Source: Gemmatimonadota bacterium (GTDB lineage: Bacteria; Gemmatimonadota; Gemmatimonadetes; Longimicrobiales; Gaopeijiaceae). Taken from it: 64,000 bases of DNA. Location of the stretch: NCBI GenBank assembly GCA_029879725.1, contig JAOUPR010000001.1, forward strand, positions 67,324-131,323. The letters run 5' to 3'. Of this stretch, positions 37,871 to 46,736 are shown piece by piece. The notes beneath the pieces are model-generated. The model searched no databases and had not been told where the DNA came from. It saw only the letters and a list, made by a program, of their open reading frames with translations. Both the position numbers and the translations under genes were made by a program. Positions within the stretch are counted from its first letter, which is position 1. Each line of letters begins with the position of its first letter.

Positions 37871-37885
37871 GCCGGACGCTTGCCC

Positions 37886-38392
37886 ATGACGGTTCTGATC
37901 CGTGTCGAGCAGGGCGACATCACCTCCTTCGAAGGGGATGGGGTGGTGAACGCAGCCAACAACCACCTCCAGCTCGGCGCTGGGGTGGCCGGAGCCATCC
38001 GCGAGAAGGGTGGCCACCAGATCCAGGAGGAGTGCGATCTGTACGTGCGCACCCACGGACCACTCCGGCTCGGCGAAGCGGCCGTTACCGGCGCGGGGAA
38101 CCTCCGCGCACGATGGGTCATCCACGCGGCCGCCATGGGAGACGAACGTCCCAGCGAAGACTCCATAAGGAGGTCCGCGCGACGTGCCTTGTTCCTGGCC
38201 GCCGAGCACCAGATGAACTCCATCGCCTTCCCGGTGCTGGGGTCGGGCGTGGGCGGGTTTCCCTTCGAATCCGCCGCTCGGTACATCATCGAGGAGATCC
38301 GTGAGCACTCACGGGAACACCCCCTCCCCGAGATCGTGGTTCTCTACGGATACACCGAGACGGACGCCCAGACCCTCCGCCGACTGATCTGA
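37886..38392 (+). CDS. Macrodomain protein (ADP-ribose binding or deacetylase type)
   Basis: Single macrodomain of 168 residues, cytosolic. It has the ADP-ribose binding pieces VNAANNHLQLGAGVAGAIREKGG, RWVIHAAAMG and IAFPVLGSGVGGFPFESAARYIIEEI. It may hydrolyse O-acetyl-ADP-ribose or ADP-ribosylated groups. A TTG two codons upstream is an alternative start. It follows the AbrB-type gene, but no ART toxin such as DarT is next to it, so a toxin-antitoxin role is not shown. The convergent LuxC-like gene ends on the adjacent base. Confidence 0.85.
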   Translation: MTVLIRVEQGDITSFEGDGVVNAANNHLQLGAGVAGAIREKGGHQIQEECDLYVRTHGPLRLGEAAVTGAGNLRARWVIHAAAMGDERPSEDSIRRSARRALFLAAEHQMNSIAFPVLGSGVGGFPFESAARYIIEEIREHSREHPLPEIVVLYGYTETDAQTLRRLI

Positions 38393-39811
38393 CTACACGT
38401 CCGACTCCGTCCACCTGAGGAGCGCGCGCAGGGGACCCTCCCCGTCGTGAAGCCACCAGGGGGGAGGGAACGCGACACCTCCGAAGTCGGTCACCCGGGT
38501 CACACCCACCCGGGCCAGCGCTTCGGCCAGCCCCGCCGTGCGCGTCCCGCACCCCGCGACGCCCGCCGTCTGGAGGTACGCGCCACGGGGCGCGACGAGT
38601 GCCGGAACCTCTCCGGCGTCCGCCACCGGGCGTACCAGCACGACCCGCCCCACGCACGCGTCGTTCAGGTCGTGTCCGGGATCCAGAACCACGGTCCACG
38701 AAGCGGCCCGCCCTGTATGGAGTTCCACGCCCTTCCCCGCCGCCGATAGCATCTCCGCGGTGCCGCGGAGCTGTTGGACCGCCGAAACCTCGATCTCGTC
38801 CATGTCACCGATGGGGAGCGCTCTCCCCACGGCGTCCAGAGCCCCCGCCACGAGCGCGGCAAACCGCGACGGCGACGTGGATCCACCGTCTTCCACGTAG
38901 ACCACGTGGGGGGACACGCACCCCCTCTGGTCGAAGAAGGCGACCGATCCCGCAACCTCGGTCACGACACGACCCACCTCGTCGGCGCCCAGGCCTTCGC
39001 GGCCCACGATGCCGAAGCCGACCCGATGATGGTATGCCACCAGCCGCGAACTCGGGGGCATCCGGTCGCGGAGGGCCTTCACGGTCTCGTCTCCGCCGTA
39101 GACCACGGTCAGGTCGGCCGCCCCGAGCACGGCGTCCTCCAGGGCCCGGTCGCCTCCCGTCCAATAGAGCACCGCCGCGGCGTCGGCCAGAGCCGGCGCC
39201 TCCTCACGCAACGCCCGCAGGAAGAGCACCGGGAGGGCGACGTCACCCAGGCCGGGTTTGACCAGGGTGGGACTCTTGACCAGGAGACTCCGGATGAGCG
39301 CCGTGGTCCCCACGCCCGGCACGCTACCCGCCACGACCTGGAAGCAGAATCGTGGGCCCATCGCCCGCAGGCTCGACAGGCGCGGCGCCGAGGACGGAAG
39401 GAAGCGGTCCAGCACGGACGGGTCCCGGAATTCCGCGTCGAGAAGAGCGCTCAGAGCGGCCACCGTCCAACCGGAGGCCATCCCGTCCAGCACCGCTGCC
39501 GCCATGTCGGGAGAGAGACCCGAAAAGGGCGAGATCCACGAAAGCGCGTCGGCGCGGAGATCGCCGCCGGGATCGAGAAACCGCTCGCCGACCCTGCCGA
39601 GATGTCTCGCGATCTCCCTCACGGGCGCGGAGTGAAGCGCGTCTCGCGCCGCCGCCAGGCGATCCACGATCTCGCGGACGGAGGCAGGATCCAGCGCCGG
39701 CACCAGAACGCCGGGCACTCCGTCGAAGGCGGCGTGCCCCGCGAGCCGGTCCCGAGCCCCCGGAGGGACCTCCCACGCCCGGAACGGCTCCGGCTCCTTC
39801 CTCCCGCTCAT
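38393..39811 (-). CDS. LuxC-like acyl-CoA/acyl-protein reductase
   Basis: NADPH-dependent fatty acyl reductase of 472 residues in the LuxC family; it turns an activated acyl group to an aldehyde. The N-terminal half holds VVAGSVPGVGTTALIRSLLVKSPTLVKPG, and the catalytic Cys298 is in SVAFFDQRGCVSPHVVYVE, the canonical LuxC site. In luminous bacteria it works with LuxE and LuxD to supply aldehyde to luciferase. Here no luxAB or luxD is present. The start overlaps the LuxE-like stop as ATGA, so the pair is translationally coupled. Confidence 0.88.
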   Translation of the reverse strand: MSGRKEPEPFRAWEVPPGARDRLAGHAAFDGVPGVLVPALDPASVREIVDRLAAARDALHSAPVREIARHLGRVGERFLDPGGDLRADALSWISPFSGLSPDMAAAVLDGMASGWTVAALSALLDAEFRDPSVLDRFLPSSAPRLSSLRAMGPRFCFQVVAGSVPGVGTTALIRSLLVKSPTLVKPGLGDVALPVLFLRALREEAPALADAAAVLYWTGGDRALEDAVLGAADLTVVYGGDETVKALRDRMPPSSRLVAYHHRVGFGIVGREGLGADEVGRVVTEVAGSVAFFDQRGCVSPHVVYVEDGGSTSPSRFAALVAGALDAVGRALPIGDMDEIEVSAVQQLRGTAEMLSAAGKGVELHTGRAASWTVVLDPGHDLNDACVGRVVLVRPVADAGEVPALVAPRGAYLQTAGVAGCGTRTAGLAEALARVGVTRVTDFGGVAFPPPWWLHDGEGPLRALLRWTESDV

Positions 39812-40899
39812 GAAGACGCCGCCAGAAGCTCGTCCATGGCCCGGGAGCACCCGCGCGGCTCCGCCCCCGGGAGTCGCCCCGTGAGCCGGACGCCTTCAGG
39901 GGTGACGCTCCCGACGTCCTGCGTCAGCAGATGGCTGATGGAACCCAGATTGGCGAGATCGAAGAACGCGAGCAGGCCCACGGACCCCTCGGGCACGGGA
40001 TCCAGCGAAACGGGATCCAGGGCCCGCACGGCGAGCCAGGGTGGCGGGCGGTGGAGGCCGCGACCTGCCTCGCCCATGGTCAGCACCGGTTCGTACAACT
40101 GGGAGAGCAGCTCCGTCATCCCATATTCGTTCACGACGCGTACCGGAGGCACGCCCAGAAGGGTGTGGACCATCCCGTAGAGGTCATCCCGGGACACCTC
40201 GCGGGATCGGCCCTTGAACCCTCCGGTCTCCATGACGCGGCTTCCCGAAGGGAGGACCACGCCCCCGCCCCGGGCCGACAAGGCGTCCAGGAGGTGGACG
40301 AAGGAGAAGGCCGTTCCCGCCACGACCACGGGAGCCTCCGCGCGGTCCGCGGCCTCCACGAACCCTTCCACGTCCAACGATCCGGTGCCGTCGACGTACC
40401 ATCCCGACGCCGAGCAGAGTTCCTCCGCCACCATCCCCATCATGTGCGAGAGCGAGGAGTGGGGAGCATCGCCCGGGGAGGGGACGAGGGAGAGGAGGTG
40501 TGGTCGCACGCCGTCGGGGAGAAGGTGACTCCGGAAGGCCGTCACACACGCGGCCCGGTACAGTCCGGCCCGCGACACGTAATGGCGGCCCCTCCCCCCG
40601 GGGCCCGCCGTCGTCCCGCTGGTCCGGAAGACCAACTCCGCCGCCTCCGGCGCTCCCACCACCAGATCGAGATGCTTGAAGGCGGTGGCGGGGACGGCGG
40701 GCACGTCCTCCCATCGGTCCACGTTGGCGGGCGTCACTCCCCGGGCATCGCACAGCGCCCTGTACGGGTCGCATCCGTCATACTGGACGGCGAAGCAACG
40801 CAGAGCCCATGCGTCGAAGGCGTCGGGCGAGGACACGGCGACGCCCCCCGCCCGGAAGAGCGCCTCCAACTCGCGAACCGCCTCGTCGAATCGTTCCAT
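39808..40899 (-). CDS. LuxE-like acyl-protein synthetase
   Basis: ATP-dependent acyl-activating enzyme of 363 residues, LuxE family. It has the phosphate-loop-like stretch ELVFRTSGTTAGPGGRGRHYVSRAG, the segment RVVNEYGMTELLSQLY typical of adenylating enzymes, and Cys351 in EPRGCSRAMDELL near the C terminus. This Cys corresponds in position to the acyl-accepting Cys of LuxE. It should activate a carboxylic acid as AMP ester and pass it through its Cys to the LuxC-like partner. It starts 9 bp after the FAD oxidoreductase. Confidence 0.87.
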   Translation of the reverse strand: MERFDEAVRELEALFRAGGVAVSSPDAFDAWALRCFAVQYDGCDPYRALCDARGVTPANVDRWEDVPAVPATAFKHLDLVVGAPEAAELVFRTSGTTAGPGGRGRHYVSRAGLYRAACVTAFRSHLLPDGVRPHLLSLVPSPGDAPHSSLSHMMGMVAEELCSASGWYVDGTGSLDVEGFVEAADRAEAPVVVAGTAFSFVHLLDALSARGGGVVLPSGSRVMETGGFKGRSREVSRDDLYGMVHTLLGVPPVRVVNEYGMTELLSQLYEPVLTMGEAGRGLHRPPPWLAVRALDPVSLDPVPEGSVGLLAFFDLANLGSISHLLTQDVGSVTPEGVRLTGRLPGAEPRGCSRAMDELLAASS

Positions 40900-40908
40900 G
40901 GACCCCGC

Positions 40909-42090
40909 TCAGGTAAACCGTCTCGGGTCCAGCAGCTTCGCCCCGGGCACCGGGTCACCCTCGGCGACGATGCTCGCGATGACACGCCCGGCCTCGAAGG
41001 CGAAGGGAAGCCCCCCTCCACTGAAACCCGAGATGACCAACTCCCCCGTCCTTCCCGGCAGTGGACCGACCAGGGGCAGATAGTCCGCCGTCCATCCGAA
41101 GATACCGCTCCAGCGCTCTTCCACCGCGAGAGGCGCCGCCGACGGGAAGGCTCGCTCGAACCAGCCTTGCAGATCACCCTGCAAACCGGGATCGAGGTCG
41201 GGCTTCATCTTCCAGTAGGAGCGGTCCCAGGCGTCGTGACGCCAGCCACCCAGCGCGATCCGCCCATCCGGAACGCTTCGCCAGACGTTGAGCTTCCAAT
41301 GCGTGGAACAACCACCCGGAAACGACAGCCCCCCGGAGTCGGCGATCAGAGCCTGACCCCGGATGGGCACGATCTCGTCTCCCAGATACGAGGAGAAGCG
41401 CCGGGAATCCACGTGCGTCGCGTACACGACCATTTCGGCGCGGACCTCGCCCCGGTCGGTGTCACAGACCAGACCCCCACGCTCCCGGCGCACCTCCGTC
41501 ACCTCCACACCCTCGGAGATCCCGGCGCCTTCGGCCTCGGCGGCGCGGGCCAATGCCACGGCCGTGGGTCCTGGACTCAGACACCCGCCCCCATCGACGA
41601 AATACCCACCGGAAAATCCTCGTCCACCCACCTTCCCCCGCGCGTCCTCGGCGGTGAGCCAGCTCACGGGAAGCCCGGCACGCTCCAACGCGGCGTGGGC
41701 GCGCTGCACGCGGACCAGCGTATGAGGCTCCGCCAGGACGAACCCGCCGGTGAGATCCAGCGCGACCCGCTCCGATTCCCCCCTTTCGCGGAGAAGCGTC
41801 CCCAGTGATGCCACCGAGCGTAGGGCGAACTCCCAGATGGCTCGCGCTTCGTCCGCGCCCCTGAAATGGACGGTCTCGTCGAACGGTTGGCGGAGAGGGG
41901 GCGCGAGCACACCCACGGCGGCCGAGGTAGTCCCGCCGCCCACCACTCCACGCTCGAGGAGCGCCACGTCCACGCCGGCGGCGGCCAGATGATAGGCGGC
42001 CGAAGTTCCGGATATCCCTCCCCCGACCACGACCACATCCACTGAGGACGCCATCTCCCGCCTGAACCCTCCCGCCTCCGGGTCGTCCAT
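40909..42090 (-). CDS. FAD-dependent oxidoreductase, DAO (D-amino-acid/glycine oxidase) family
   Basis: Flavoprotein of 393 residues. The N-terminal Rossmann motif is DVVVVGGGISGTSAAYHLAAAGVDVALLERG, then GGTTSAAVGVLAPP. The C terminus has IFGWTADYLPLVGPLPGRTGELVISGFSGGGLPFAFEAGRVIA, typical of DAO oxidases and related sarcosine/glycine oxidases. The actual substrate is unknown. The chosen ATG has GAGGAG 8 bp upstream. It is first in the operon with the LuxE-like and LuxC-like genes, so it may prepare or oxidise the compound that they handle. Confidence 0.87.
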   Translation of the reverse strand: MDDPEAGGFRREMASSVDVVVVGGGISGTSAAYHLAAAGVDVALLERGVVGGGTTSAAVGVLAPPLRQPFDETVHFRGADEARAIWEFALRSVASLGTLLRERGESERVALDLTGGFVLAEPHTLVRVQRAHAALERAGLPVSWLTAEDARGKVGGRGFSGGYFVDGGGCLSPGPTAVALARAAEAEGAGISEGVEVTEVRRERGGLVCDTDRGEVRAEMVVYATHVDSRRFSSYLGDEIVPIRGQALIADSGGLSFPGGCSTHWKLNVWRSVPDGRIALGGWRHDAWDRSYWKMKPDLDPGLQGDLQGWFERAFPSAAPLAVEERWSGIFGWTADYLPLVGPLPGRTGELVISGFSGGGLPFAFEAGRVIASIVAEGDPVPGAKLLDPRRFT

Positions 42091-42238
42091 CGGCCGATCT
42101 CCTCGATAGGGCGCGCGCGCCGGACACTCTATAGATTGGAGGAACTTAAGATCTTATTCTCGATCCGACGACGTGGGCACTCTGCCCGTCGCCCGACCGG
42201 ACCCGCCGCCCGTTTCATTCCGGCCCACCCCCACCCCC

Positions 42239-45088
42239 ATGCCGCTTCGCCACCCGACCCTCGCGCTGATCGCGTCGCTCCTCGCACCGACGGGCACGTC
42301 GGCCCAGGCCACGCCGGCGTCGAACGCGTTCCTGCCGGACACCCTCGTCATCGCCACGTCCAACAACTTCCCGCCGGTGAACCTCCTGGGGAACGGCGGC
42401 GAGCTTACCGGCTTCGCGCGGGACCTCTCCACCGCGGTCCTCGAAGCGGTGGGAAAGACACCCCGATACGTCCATTCATCGAGCTGGACCCGGGTCCTCG
42501 ACCTCCTGATGTCGGACTCGGCGGACTTCATCGACGACACGGGGTACACGCCGGGTCGTGACGCGTACCTCGACTTCACCGACCCCATCCTCGAGATGGA
42601 CGAGGTGATCTTCGTCCAACGGGACCGACAAGACGTCATCGATCTGGAAAGTCTGCGGGGGAGGCCGGTGGCGTGTGTCGACCAGCACATCAGCCATCTG
42701 TACCTCGACAGTCTGGGAATCGTGGAATGTGTGGTGGTGCCCGTCCCCGCGGACGGGATGATGGGGCTCGTGAGCGGAGAGGTGGACGCGTTCGTCTACC
42801 CCCGGGAGATCGGCCTCTACTACATCCAGCAGATGGAACTCGATTCCGATATCAAGCTGGCGGGCGACCCCCTCCGCACCCTCACATGGTCCATGACGGT
42901 CCGCGAGGGCGACGGGCATCTTCGGGACCTCCTCAATCGGGGAATTCGCGACGTCCGAGCCACGGGCAGGTACGACCGGATCCGGAGACGCTGGTTCGGC
43001 ACCGCGGTGAGTCCGGGAAGATCCCCGTGGCGGTTGCTCCTTCTGGTCGGAGGGCCGTTGGTGTTGGGAGTCATCCTCGTCGGTTCGATGATCCTCCTGG
43101 TCATGAACCTCCGCCTGCGAAAGGCACGCCTCGGACTGGCGGCCAGCGAGGCCCGCCTCCGCGCCATCGTGGACAGTTCCCTGGACATCGTCACGCTCGT
43201 GTCTCCGGATGGCATCGTCCTCACCGAGAACCCCTCGATGCAGGAGACGCTGGGGTATCCGCCCGAGGAGATGGTCGGGACCAACGTGCTGCACATCATC
43301 CACCCCGACGACGCGGAGACGGTGGCGATGGGGCTCCGTAGCCTGGGGGAAGATCCAGGAGGCGTGGCCAGCGTGGTCACGCGAGTGCGGGCGCAATCCG
43401 GGGAGTGGAGGGTCATCGAGGCCATCGCCCGGAACATGGAGCCGGTGGGGGCCGTCGAAGGCATCCTCGTGAACGCCCGCGACATCACGTCACGGAGGGA
43501 GGCCGAGCTACTGAGCACACGGATGGGGCGGATCCTGGACGAGTCCCTGAACGAAATCTACCTCCTGGATCAGACGTCCCTTCGCGTGCTTCAGTTGAGC
43601 CGGGCCGCCGCAGAGAACCTGGGCCACCACGACGCGGAACCCGGGACGCTGGACTTCGCGGATTTCTTCCTGCTCGATTCGGGCGCTCCCCTCGGCCCCA
43701 CGCTCGCCGAGATGGCCGCCGGACACGAGCACCACATGGAACTCCGTGGGCGCATGCGCCGAAAGGACGGTACCACCTACGAGGCCGAAGCCCGGGTGTC
43801 CACGACCCAGGAAGGGGACCCGCCCGTTCTCCTCGTGGTTGCCCAGGACGTGTCCGAACGCGTTTCGGCGGAAGAGAAGGTCCGCCAGATGCAGAAGATG
43901 GAAGCGGTGGGAAGCCTGGCCAGCGGAGTCGCGCACGACTTCAACAACCTGTTGCAGATCATCCTGTCGAGTTGCCGACTCATTCGACACGAAGAACTCG
44001 ACCCACGAACGCTCAAAAGACTTTCCGTCATCGAGGACGCCGGAAAGAAGGCCAGCGGCCTCACCAACCAACTTCTCACGTTCAGCCGCCGGACCACGGG
44101 GGAGAGCCGACCTCTGGACCTCAATGCGGTGGTATCGGGCACCCGGGACATGTTGCACCGACTCCTGAGAGCCGACGTGAAGCTGGTTCTCGACCTGGAT
44201 CCCGACCCGATCATGGTCATGGCCGACGAAACGAATCTCAACCAGGTGATCCTGAACCTGTCGGTGAACTCCCATCACGCCATGACGTCCGGAGGAACCC
44301 TGACGATCATGACGGGTCGGGCCACCTCCATCGCCCCGGAAGCGGACGGCGCGACCGCCATGCCGACCGCCGCTGGACCCGGGCGCCCCCAGGAGTGGGC
44401 GTTGCTCCGTGTATCGGACACCGGAACGGGGATGGATCCGGAGACACTCTCGCGGGTGTTCGAGCCGTTCTTCACCACCAAGCCCGCGGGGACGGGCACG
44501 GGCCTGGGGCTGTCCATGGTCCACAGCATCGTGGAGAAGTGTGGGGGATATATCGACGTCACGACCGAGCGCGGGGTGGGCACCGAGGTGAGCATCTATT
44601 TCCCGGTGCCGGAGTCCCTGGACGGGGTGGCGCCGGAGGCTCCCGTGCATGCCCCGTCGTCACACGAACCCGACCAGGAACCTCCGGCGACGGGGAGGTC
44701 CCGCACCGTCCTCATCGCGGAAGACAATCCGCTGGTGAGGGAATCGGTGGTGGAGTTTCTCGTCGTCCTGGGGTTCGAGGTCATCGAAACCACCACGCCG
44801 GAAGAGGCGCTCGCCGTCGCACAGGACCGGGAGCGACGGGTGGACATCCTCCTCACCGACGTGGTCATGCCGGAAACCAGCGGTCCGGTCCTCGCCCGTC
44901 AGGTGCGGGCTGTCCGCCCCGACGTCCGGGTGGTGTTCATGTCGGGATATGCCCACGACACCTTCGCCCGCGAGAACATGGCCGCGGAGGATGTGGTTCT
45001 CCTCCCGAAGCCGTTCGGGCTCCACGACCTCGCGCGGGTGATGGACGAAGTGCTCACGAAAGGTCGCGGACCGGCTAACCCGGCCTGA
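42239..45088 (+). CDS. Hybrid sensor histidine kinase with periplasmic SBP_bac_3 sensor, PAS and receiver domains
   Basis: Membrane signalling protein of 949 residues. Signal peptide (PLRHPTLALIASLLAPTGTSAQA), a periplasmic family-3 solute-binding sensor (about 30-255), one TM helix (LLLLVGGPLVLGVILVGSMILLVMNL), two PAS-type domains, then HisKA with His566 in GVAHDFNNLLQ, HATPase (DTGTGMD, FTTKPAGTGTGLGLS) and a C-terminal receiver with Asp874 in LLTDVVMPETSG. The sensor type often binds amino acids. A GTG at 42173 is an alternative start but gives no signal peptide at the N terminus. It is divergent from the DAO-LuxE-LuxC operon, so that operon may be a target. The end overlaps the amidohydrolase by 14 bp. 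Confidence 0.92.
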   Translation: MPLRHPTLALIASLLAPTGTSAQATPASNAFLPDTLVIATSNNFPPVNLLGNGGELTGFARDLSTAVLEAVGKTPRYVHSSSWTRVLDLLMSDSADFIDDTGYTPGRDAYLDFTDPILEMDEVIFVQRDRQDVIDLESLRGRPVACVDQHISHLYLDSLGIVECVVVPVPADGMMGLVSGEVDAFVYPREIGLYYIQQMELDSDIKLAGDPLRTLTWSMTVREGDGHLRDLLNRGIRDVRATGRYDRIRRRWFGTAVSPGRSPWRLLLLVGGPLVLGVILVGSMILLVMNLRLRKARLGLAASEARLRAIVDSSLDIVTLVSPDGIVLTENPSMQETLGYPPEEMVGTNVLHIIHPDDAETVAMGLRSLGEDPGGVASVVTRVRAQSGEWRVIEAIARNMEPVGAVEGILVNARDITSRREAELLSTRMGRILDESLNEIYLLDQTSLRVLQLSRAAAENLGHHDAEPGTLDFADFFLLDSGAPLGPTLAEMAAGHEHHMELRGRMRRKDGTTYEAEARVSTTQEGDPPVLLVVAQDVSERVSAEEKVRQMQKMEAVGSLASGVAHDFNNLLQIILSSCRLIRHEELDPRTLKRLSVIEDAGKKASGLTNQLLTFSRRTTGESRPLDLNAVVSGTRDMLHRLLRADVKLVLDLDPDPIMVMADETNLNQVILNLSVNSHHAMTSGGTLTIMTGRATSIAPEADGATAMPTAAGPGRPQEWALLRVSDTGTGMDPETLSRVFEPFFTTKPAGTGTGLGLSMVHSIVEKCGGYIDVTTERGVGTEVSIYFPVPESLDGVAPEAPVHAPSSHEPDQEPPATGRSRTVLIAEDNPLVRESVVEFLVVLGFEVIETTTPEEALAVAQDRERRVDILLTDVVMPETSGPVLARQVRAVRPDVRVVFMSGYAHDTFARENMAAEDVVLLPKPFGLHDLARVMDEVLTKGRGPANPA

Positions 45089-46736
45089 CCCCTCGTCCGG
45101 CGCGGAGGCCGGTGTGCTCGCCATCCCGGATGGTCACGGTCCCGTTCACGACCACCAACGGCACCCCCGAAGGGTATCGGTGCGGGTCTTCGAACGTCGC
45201 GTTGTCCCCGATCCCGGCCGGATCGAACGCCACCAGGTCGGCGAACGCGCCCGCGCGGATCTCGCCCCGGTCGAGGAGACCCAGCTTCTTCGCGGGCATC
45301 CCCGTGATCTTGTGGAGGGCCGACTCCAGGGTGAGCGCTCCCGTGTCCCTGACGTAGTGGCCGAGGAGGCGCGGGAAGGTTCCGTACGACCGGGGGTGCG
45401 GAGAGCCCACCGAGAGCGGGCCGTACGGTGCGTAGGCCCCACCGTCGGAGCACACCATCCCGAGGGGGTGGGCGAGGACCTTCGCGGTGTTCTCCTCGGA
45501 CATCCCATGCCCGATCATCCCCACCGAGCCGCCGTTGGCTTCGAGGAGCTCCACGGCGAGCCGGTACGGGTCCGATCCCCGCTCCATGGCCAATGCGCCC
45601 AGCCGCCGGCCCCGGGCCCATGCCGTACCCTCGTTGGCGCTGGTGATCTGTACGCTGTCCCAGTCACCCAGGAGGGCCACCTTGTCTCGCGCGGCCCGCT
45701 CCAGGACGGCCGCGGTGTCCGGGGCGCGGAGCCGTCGCAGGAAGGCCTGGCTCCCTCCCGCCCGGAACTCGCCGGGGAACAGGTTGGAGAGGCCCGTCTG
45801 ATAGGCCGTGTAGGGGTAGCGATCGAAGTGGACGTCCACGCCGTCGGCGCGAGCGGCCTCGATGGCGTCCAGCGCCGCGCCGGCCTTCCAGTAGTTGCGA
45901 GCCCCCTGTGCCTTGAGGTGGGACACGATCACCGGGACGCCGGCCATGCGTCCCACGTGGATCGTCTCCTCCACCGCCGCGAGGACGCGGTCGTCTTCAT
46001 TGCGCATGTGGGACGCGTAGGGGAGACCCGTTCCGCGCAGGACCGAGGCGAGCTCCACGAGCTCCGAGGTCGGGGCGAACGCACCCGGCGTGTACTCGAG
46101 CCCGGTGGACAACCCCACCGCCCCACCCGTCAGCGCCCGGCGCACCTCGCCCTTCATCCTCTCCAGCTCGGCATCCGTCGCCGGCCGGTTCTCGTACCCC
46201 ACCACCAGGCCCCGGATGGTGCCGTGCCCCACCATGGTGGCCACGTTCACCGCCGGGCGCTCCCGGTCGATGCGAGCCAGGAACTCCGTGGTGTCGCGGA
46301 AGTCGATCTCCACGCCGTAGGAGCGATCGTACCTCTCGCGAGTCTCCCGGAATCCCTCCTCGGACCACGGGCCCACCGAGCCGCCGTCCTGGCCGACGAC
46401 CTCCACCGTGACCCCCTGGCGGATGCGGCTCTCCGCGCGGGGCTCCACGAGAAGGGAGAGCTCGGCGTGGGAGTGGACGTCTACGAAGCCGGGCGCGAGC
46501 GCCATCCCCCGGAGGTCGAGCTCCTCGGCAGCGGCCGGCAGGGCGGGGCCCACGGCGGTGATACGGTCGCCCGTCACCGCGACGTCCACCTCCCGCCCGG
46601 GAGCACCCGTTCCGTCGAAGACCATGGCGCCCCGCAACACGAGATCGGCCCGATCCCGGGGGAACACGGCCCCGGGGGACATCAGGGCTCCGGCACCGGC
46701 CACCGTGGTTGCGCGAACGAACGTGCGACGCTTCAT
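45075..46736 (-). CDS. N-acyl-D-amino-acid deacylase-like amidohydrolase (TAT-exported)
   Basis: Secreted amidohydrolase of 553 residues with a TAT leader, KRRTFVRATTVAGAGAL. D-aminoacylase motifs are GFVDVHSHAELSLL (HxH), MVGHGTIRG, YASHMRNEDDRV, VIVSHLKAQG and the Asp in MVCSDGGAYAP. The C-terminal composite domain is present. The usual metal-bridging Cys of the VVVGNCG motif is replaced here (VEVVGQDGGS), so metal binding differs from the Alcaligenes enzyme and the substrate could be another N-acylated or cyclic compound. It overlaps the convergent kinase gene by 14 bp. Confidence 0.88.
   Translation of the reverse strand: MKRRTFVRATTVAGAGALMSPGAVFPRDRADLVLRGAMVFDGTGAPGREVDVAVTGDRITAVGPALPAAAEELDLRGMALAPGFVDVHSHAELSLLVEPRAESRIRQGVTVEVVGQDGGSVGPWSEEGFRETRERYDRSYGVEIDFRDTTEFLARIDRERPAVNVATMVGHGTIRGLVVGYENRPATDAELERMKGEVRRALTGGAVGLSTGLEYTPGAFAPTSELVELASVLRGTGLPYASHMRNEDDRVLAAVEETIHVGRMAGVPVIVSHLKAQGARNYWKAGAALDAIEAARADGVDVHFDRYPYTAYQTGLSNLFPGEFRAGGSQAFLRRLRAPDTAAVLERAARDKVALLGDWDSVQITSANEGTAWARGRRLGALAMERGSDPYRLAVELLEANGGSVGMIGHGMSEENTAKVLAHPLGMVCSDGGAYAPYGPLSVGSPHPRSYGTFPRLLGHYVRDTGALTLESALHKITGMPAKKLGLLDRGEIRAGAFADLVAFDPAGIGDNATFEDPHRYPSGVPLVVVNGTVTIRDGEHTGLRAGRGVRPG

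Follow-up and report, generated by a model that had tools for sequence, protein, structure and literature searches.

A luciferase-free LuxE–LuxC pair in Gemmatimonadota as a candidate bypass of QueC and QueF in queuosine synthesis

A 64,000-nucleotide stretch of DNA from a Gemmatimonadota bacterium (order Longimicrobiales; contig JAOUPR010000001.1), referred to as the window, carries adjacent genes for homologues of LuxE and LuxC, the two proteins of the fatty acid reductase of luminous bacteria. As a pair, the two belong to the core genes of this non-luminous order, and their presence implies no luciferase operon. According to our best reading, which we hold with a probability of just under 60%, LuxE and LuxC at this locus bypass QueC and QueF in queuosine synthesis.

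From homology and from the invariant cysteines of both proteins, we infer a two-enzyme carboxylic acid reductase that depends on ATP and NADPH. LuxE would adenylate the acid and load the acyl group onto its Cys351, from where it would be transferred to Cys298 of LuxC and reduced to the aldehyde. The acid in this lineage is most likely 7-carboxy-7-deazaguanine (CDG), the product of QueE. A class-III aminotransferase may then convert the aldehyde into 7-aminomethyl-7-deazaguanine (preQ1); the gene for this enzyme neighbours the pair in other phyla, and a relative of the window's organism carries it at a separate site. Since the conversion of the QueE product from acid via aldehyde to amine would yield preQ1, i.e. 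the same product as QueC plus QueF, the pair and the aminotransferase would take the place of these two enzymes. This proposal of a substrate, a product and a role for the aminotransferase builds on observed domains, residues, gene adjacency and mutual exclusion.

A conserved LuxE–LuxC pair without luciferase genes

In the window, the genes for a DAO-family oxidoreductase dependent on flavin adenine dinucleotide (FAD), LuxE and LuxC follow one another on the minus strand. Direct reading of the sequence confirmed the coupling of the three genes described in an initial annotation of this DNA: nine base pairs (40900–40908) separate DAO from LuxE, and an ATGA at 39811–39808 combines the LuxE stop codon with the overlapping ATG start of LuxC. 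All three proteins exceed the curated Pfam cut-offs (24.9 bits for LuxE, PF04443; 21 bits for LuxC, PF05893), and LuxE and LuxC are identified as family members by their scores of 71.3 and 219.9 bits together with the C-terminal acyl-Cys351 and the catalytic Cys298, respectively. The only convincing solved-structure match for either protein is the LuxC–LuxE complex 7xc6 (LuxC versus 7xc6_A, 2e-18, by profile 9e-46; LuxE versus 7xc6_E, 7e-15, by profile 1e-30). Both cysteines named in the annotation align with those of 7xc6, and in alignments of related genomes Cys351 is identical in all 46 LuxE and Cys298 in all 52 LuxC sequences. The annotation had also proposed that the two proteins form an acid-to-aldehyde module without luciferase; homology and the invariant cysteines make this chemistry probable. 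The luminescence equivalogs NF052244 and NF052251 were not reached (LuxE 58.3 versus 550, LuxC 58.9 versus 750), and, in agreement with the annotation, neither luxAB nor luxD occurs among the open reading frames around the locus. One Bac_luciferase-family protein is encoded on another contig of the genome; this superfamily is common in non-luminous bacteria.

The predicted LuxE structure (mean predicted local distance difference test score, pLDDT, 92.7) has as its nearest folds PaaK-type phenylacetate and aminohydroxybenzoate ligases. A PaaK-like fold of the model would fit an aromatic or heteroaromatic acid, but this is no proof, as LuxE of luminous bacteria presumably has a related fold.

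LuxC was found in 56 of 59 relatives. LuxE lies immediately before LuxC in nearly all genomes of two families of the order, and a few kilobases downstream of LuxC in a third family. A scan of named genomes detected the two genes together in Gemmatimonadota, Verrucomicrobiota, Myxococcota, Binatota, Eremiobacterota and Omnitrophota as well as in Nitrospirota, Chloroflexota, Bacillota and Proteobacteria. Both are located on the same strand within 200 bp in 133 of 141 loci from many phyla. A distant LuxE–LuxC pair occurs in another family of the class (f5; L111 and L112), with 145–163 bits to the Pfam LuxE profile, which is above the score of the window's LuxE. This pair probably has another function, because QueF and QueC are present as well in at least one of the genomes (G161).

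Mutual exclusion with QueC and QueF, and partners of the pair

The same 149 genomes of the class were scored for LuxC, QueF and QueC. Only two of them have both LuxC (75 genomes) and QueF (57 genomes), whereas 73 have LuxC only, 55 QueF only and 19 neither. The comparison with QueC (58 genomes) gave nearly the same picture (both, 2; LuxC only, 73; QueC only, 56; neither, 18). For LuxC and QueF the exclusion corresponds to a Fisher p of ~1e-21, with kinship ignored. QueF matches of about 25 bits were excluded as FolE-type paralogues, because in G014, a relative from the same family as the window's organism, such a match is a FolE-like gene adjoining a pterin synthase gene. The two genomes with both LuxC and QueF are G161, whose LuxC is distant, and G281, where contamination is possible because QueC and QueF lie together at the edge of a single contig. 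A swap is visible within family f7, where genus g82 has QueF but no LuxC and other genera have LuxC but no QueF. The window's genome has LuxC and gave no match to QueC or QueF, and the route through these two enzymes is thus not represented in it.

According to a survey of 80 loci, the neighbours of the pair vary by clade. The order QueE–LuxE–LuxC is found in family f8 of the class (L199:5734-8823; L200:6098-9248), and the order QueE–aminotransferase–LuxE–LuxC in a verrucomicrobial locus (L129:5762-10492), the QueE of which scores 303.6 bits against a cut-off of 300. In 12 verrucomicrobial loci the order is LuxE–LuxC–QueD, in one case with an aminotransferase gene in front (L186:3-3529); QueD of L184 reaches equivalog level (105 versus 89 bits). 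A class-III aminotransferase gene adjoins the pair in many phyla. Most of these aminotransferases form one clade (SH-aLRT 99), which spans Myxococcota, Eremiobacterota, Omnitrophota, Verrucomicrobiota and Chlamydiota, is separate from ArgD, GabT and BioA of Escherichia coli, and also holds the unlinked gene of G014 (L218). The annotation's statement that no known pathway is near thus holds for the window, but not for homologous loci, where QueE, QueD and the aminotransferase stand beside the pair. It is important to note that the case for a role of LuxE–LuxC relatives in deazaguanine or pyrimidine metabolism is stronger for some other lineages than the queuosine case is for the window's lineage.

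These neighbours also bear on the notion that the pair is a fatty acid reductase, as in luminous bacteria, which supplies fatty aldehydes for lipids or alcohols. The only characterised relatives (7xc6) indeed reduce fatty acids, and in one sub-lineage (L113, L114, L139 and L165) the pair lies a few kilobases downstream of genes for AOS (SPT-like), GNAT and epimerase proteins resembling a bacterial ceramide synthesis cluster. We nevertheless consider this quite unlikely. Both proteins score far under the equivalog cut-offs, lipid genes are not recurrent in most clades of the survey, the partners found act on pterin, deazaguanine or pyrimidine, and a fatty acid reductase would not predict the exclusion of QueC and QueF.

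In a sister clade, which comprises sequences from Bacillus, Paenibacillus, Ramlibacter, Pantoea and others, LuxE and LuxC occur together with a short-chain dehydrogenase/reductase (SDR) or alcohol dehydrogenase, and at several loci also with ThiD, ThiE, and permease or THI5-type (pyrimidine-type) transporter genes. A thiamine pyrophosphate (TPP) riboswitch precedes the operon in 7 of the 11 sister-clade loci scanned (L124, L138, L144, L148, L154, L163 and L170; Bacillota, Proteobacteria, Chloroflexota and Methylomirabilota); none was found at the scanned loci of other clades. ThiC is absent from 8 of 12 sister-clade genomes. Very probably, the sister clade reduces a thiamine-pyrimidine carboxylate, in what looks like an undescribed salvage route to the thiamine pyrimidine (hydroxymethylpyrimidine, HMP). 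That the window's pair likewise produces HMP is extremely improbable despite these riboswitches, thi genes, SDRs and transporters and the frequent lack of ThiC: the window's pair falls outside the sister clade, ThiC is present in its genome and in nearly all relatives with LuxE and LuxC, and no riboswitch was detected in the 25–55 kb region of the window or at the scanned Longimicrobiales loci. A thiamine role for the window was accordingly rejected, there being no thi gene near the pair either.

Several findings weigh against the proposed bypass of QueC and QueF. No que genes were ever seen beside the pair in Longimicrobiales. Genomes of family f8 retain a divergent QueC-like protein (~105 bits), and the sister clade clearly serves thiamine, so that substrates differ between clades. 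Moreover, LuxC and QueF may have been switched independently only two to four times; with so few switches and kinship ignored, the exclusion statistic alone is not decisive. The relative G014, of which 1.59 of 2.02 Mb (79%) was read, speaks for the bypass in having adjacent tgt and queA genes (L225, equivalog level) and queG but no queC, queF or YhhQ match in that part; its pterin synthase gene adjoins FolE. On the other side, this synthase homologue remains under the QueD cut-off (61.9 versus 89.25 bits), and QueE was not found in the part read, where the search gave only weak matches to MoaA and other radical-SAM proteins. The missing QueE in G014 is the weakest link of the queuosine reading.

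Therefore, the absence of QueC and QueF could also mean that lineages with LuxE and LuxC no longer make preQ1 de novo but salvage it; the pair would then have a different function, and its exclusion with QueC and QueF would be a coincidence of phylogeny. The missing QueE and the small number of independent switches would agree with this. Such a coincidence is unlikely, however, in view of the direct links QueE–LuxE–LuxC, QueE–aminotransferase–LuxE–LuxC and LuxE–LuxC–QueD in f8 and Verrucomicrobia; furthermore, no match to YhhQ was found in the 1.59 Mb of G014.

Taken together, it is about evenly balanced whether LuxE–LuxC plus a class-III aminotransferase constitutes, in several phyla, a second, non-orthologous route from CDG to preQ1 (via 7-formyl-7-deazaguanine), and whether the sister clade employs the same chemistry, together with an SDR or alcohol dehydrogenase, to produce the thiamine pyrimidine. 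If so, luminescence would be a special case among the uses of a reductase module from primary cofactor and tRNA-base metabolism, and a widespread pair that is usually annotated from luminous bacteria would gain a function. The QueC/QueF holes would be filled in many genomes that are currently classed as lacking queuosine synthesis, and the prediction of queuosine and thiamine producers from metagenomes would change. Among the open-access papers searched, none was found that connects queuosine or thiamine with either LuxE or LuxC, subscription literature being outside the search; the proposed route is apparently undescribed.

The DAO gene and the surroundings of the pair

The initial annotation had regarded DAO, LuxE and LuxC as one dedicated pathway to an amine or aldehyde and had suggested comparing the neighbourhoods of such triples. 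This comparison upheld the pair but not the triple. DAO occurs in 14 of 154 genomes of the order, all within the window's family, and more than 90% of the order's genomes have LuxE–LuxC without it. In nine genomes from five genera DAO lies beside LuxE, and this adjacency is scattered over the DAO tree; six other DAO copies form one clade and are located away from LuxE. Orthologues apart from LuxE are those of L102, L104, L105, L106 and L108, and a universal-stress-protein-like gene next to DAO in L102, L105 and L108 represents a conserved second context. A joint pathway of all three proteins is very unlikely with this distribution, even though the genes are tightly spaced and their adjacency is kept across the DAO tree. 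As DAO is patchy and has unlinked copies elsewhere, it appears to be an old but dispensable neighbour. On account of its distribution it was rejected as an essential partner of LuxE–LuxC, and it would not be needed for the proposed queuosine role. The DAO protein stays far below the cut-off of the glycine oxidase ThiO (TIGR02352; 82 versus 250.8).

Table 1 Coordinates of features at the LuxE–LuxC locus of the window
Feature	Position	Strand	Evidence and remarks
DAO-family FAD oxidoreductase, 393 amino acids	40909-42090	-	PF01266 172.7 bits, 2e-50; accessory gene, minority of genomes
LuxE-like acyl-AMP ligase / acyl-protein synthetase, 363 amino acids	39808-40899	-	PF04443 71.3 bits, 9.5e-20
LuxC-like NAD(P)H-dependent acyl-thioester reductase, 472 amino acids	38393-39811	-	PF05893 219.9 bits, 7e-65
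LuxC catalytic Cys298 codon (FDQRGCVSP)	38918-38920	-	Invariant in homologues; aligns with equivalent Cys of 7xc6_A
LuxE acyl-accepting Cys351 codon (PRGCSRAM)	39847-39849	-	Invariant; aligns with C-terminal GCS motif of 7xc6_E
Tat-signal amidohydrolase, D-aminoacylase type	45075-46733 (start codon approximate)	-	PF07969 1e-24; synteny

Some relatives have the amidohydrolase gene immediately ahead of DAO or LuxE; in L101, L103 and L109 it adjoins DAO. In the window a gene for a hybrid sensor kinase (42173-45088; SBP_bac_3, PAS, HisKA, HATPase and receiver domains) intervenes between amidohydrolase and DAO. On the other side, a macro-domain (ADP-ribose-binding) gene at 37880-38392 is convergent with LuxC and is found at the same spot in several relatives (e.g. 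L099, L100, L107, L042, L043, L048 and L057). The usual Longimicrobiales neighbours, i.e. YpdA, YgfZ, an ABC exporter, a transglutaminase, a respiratory complex and the amidohydrolase, were considered as a guide to function, but only housekeeping synteny was apparent. A YpdA link in Omnitrophota was dropped, as the protein there is a thioredoxin reductase.

Comparison with known systems

The DAO protein shares its fold and FAD motif with glycine oxidase ThiO, NikD and MnmC. The GLRPGT motif of glycine oxidase, however, reads GIFGWT in the window, and its arginine is thus missing.

With the LuxC–LuxE fatty acid reductase of luminous bacteria (7xc6) the window's pair has in common the two protein families, the aligned acyl-cysteine of LuxE and catalytic cysteine of LuxC, and the expected chemistry from acid via acyl-AMP and thioester to aldehyde. 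It differs in lacking luxAB and luxD, in its distance from the LuxE and LuxC equivalogs, in the canonical NEYGMTE motif of its LuxE, which is degenerate in the 7xc6 protein, and in its partners, which in other lineages are que or thiamine genes. PaaK-type aryl-acid AMP ligases are the closest solved folds to the LuxE model, whereas LuxE is shorter and would use a C-terminal acyl-accepting cysteine in place of coenzyme A.

Compared with the canonical QueD–QueE–QueC–QueF route, the proposed pathway would likewise start from CDG and end with preQ1, and QueD and QueE are operon partners of the pair in other lineages. QueC and QueF are absent, and the carboxylate would be converted into the amine via an aldehyde instead of a nitrile.

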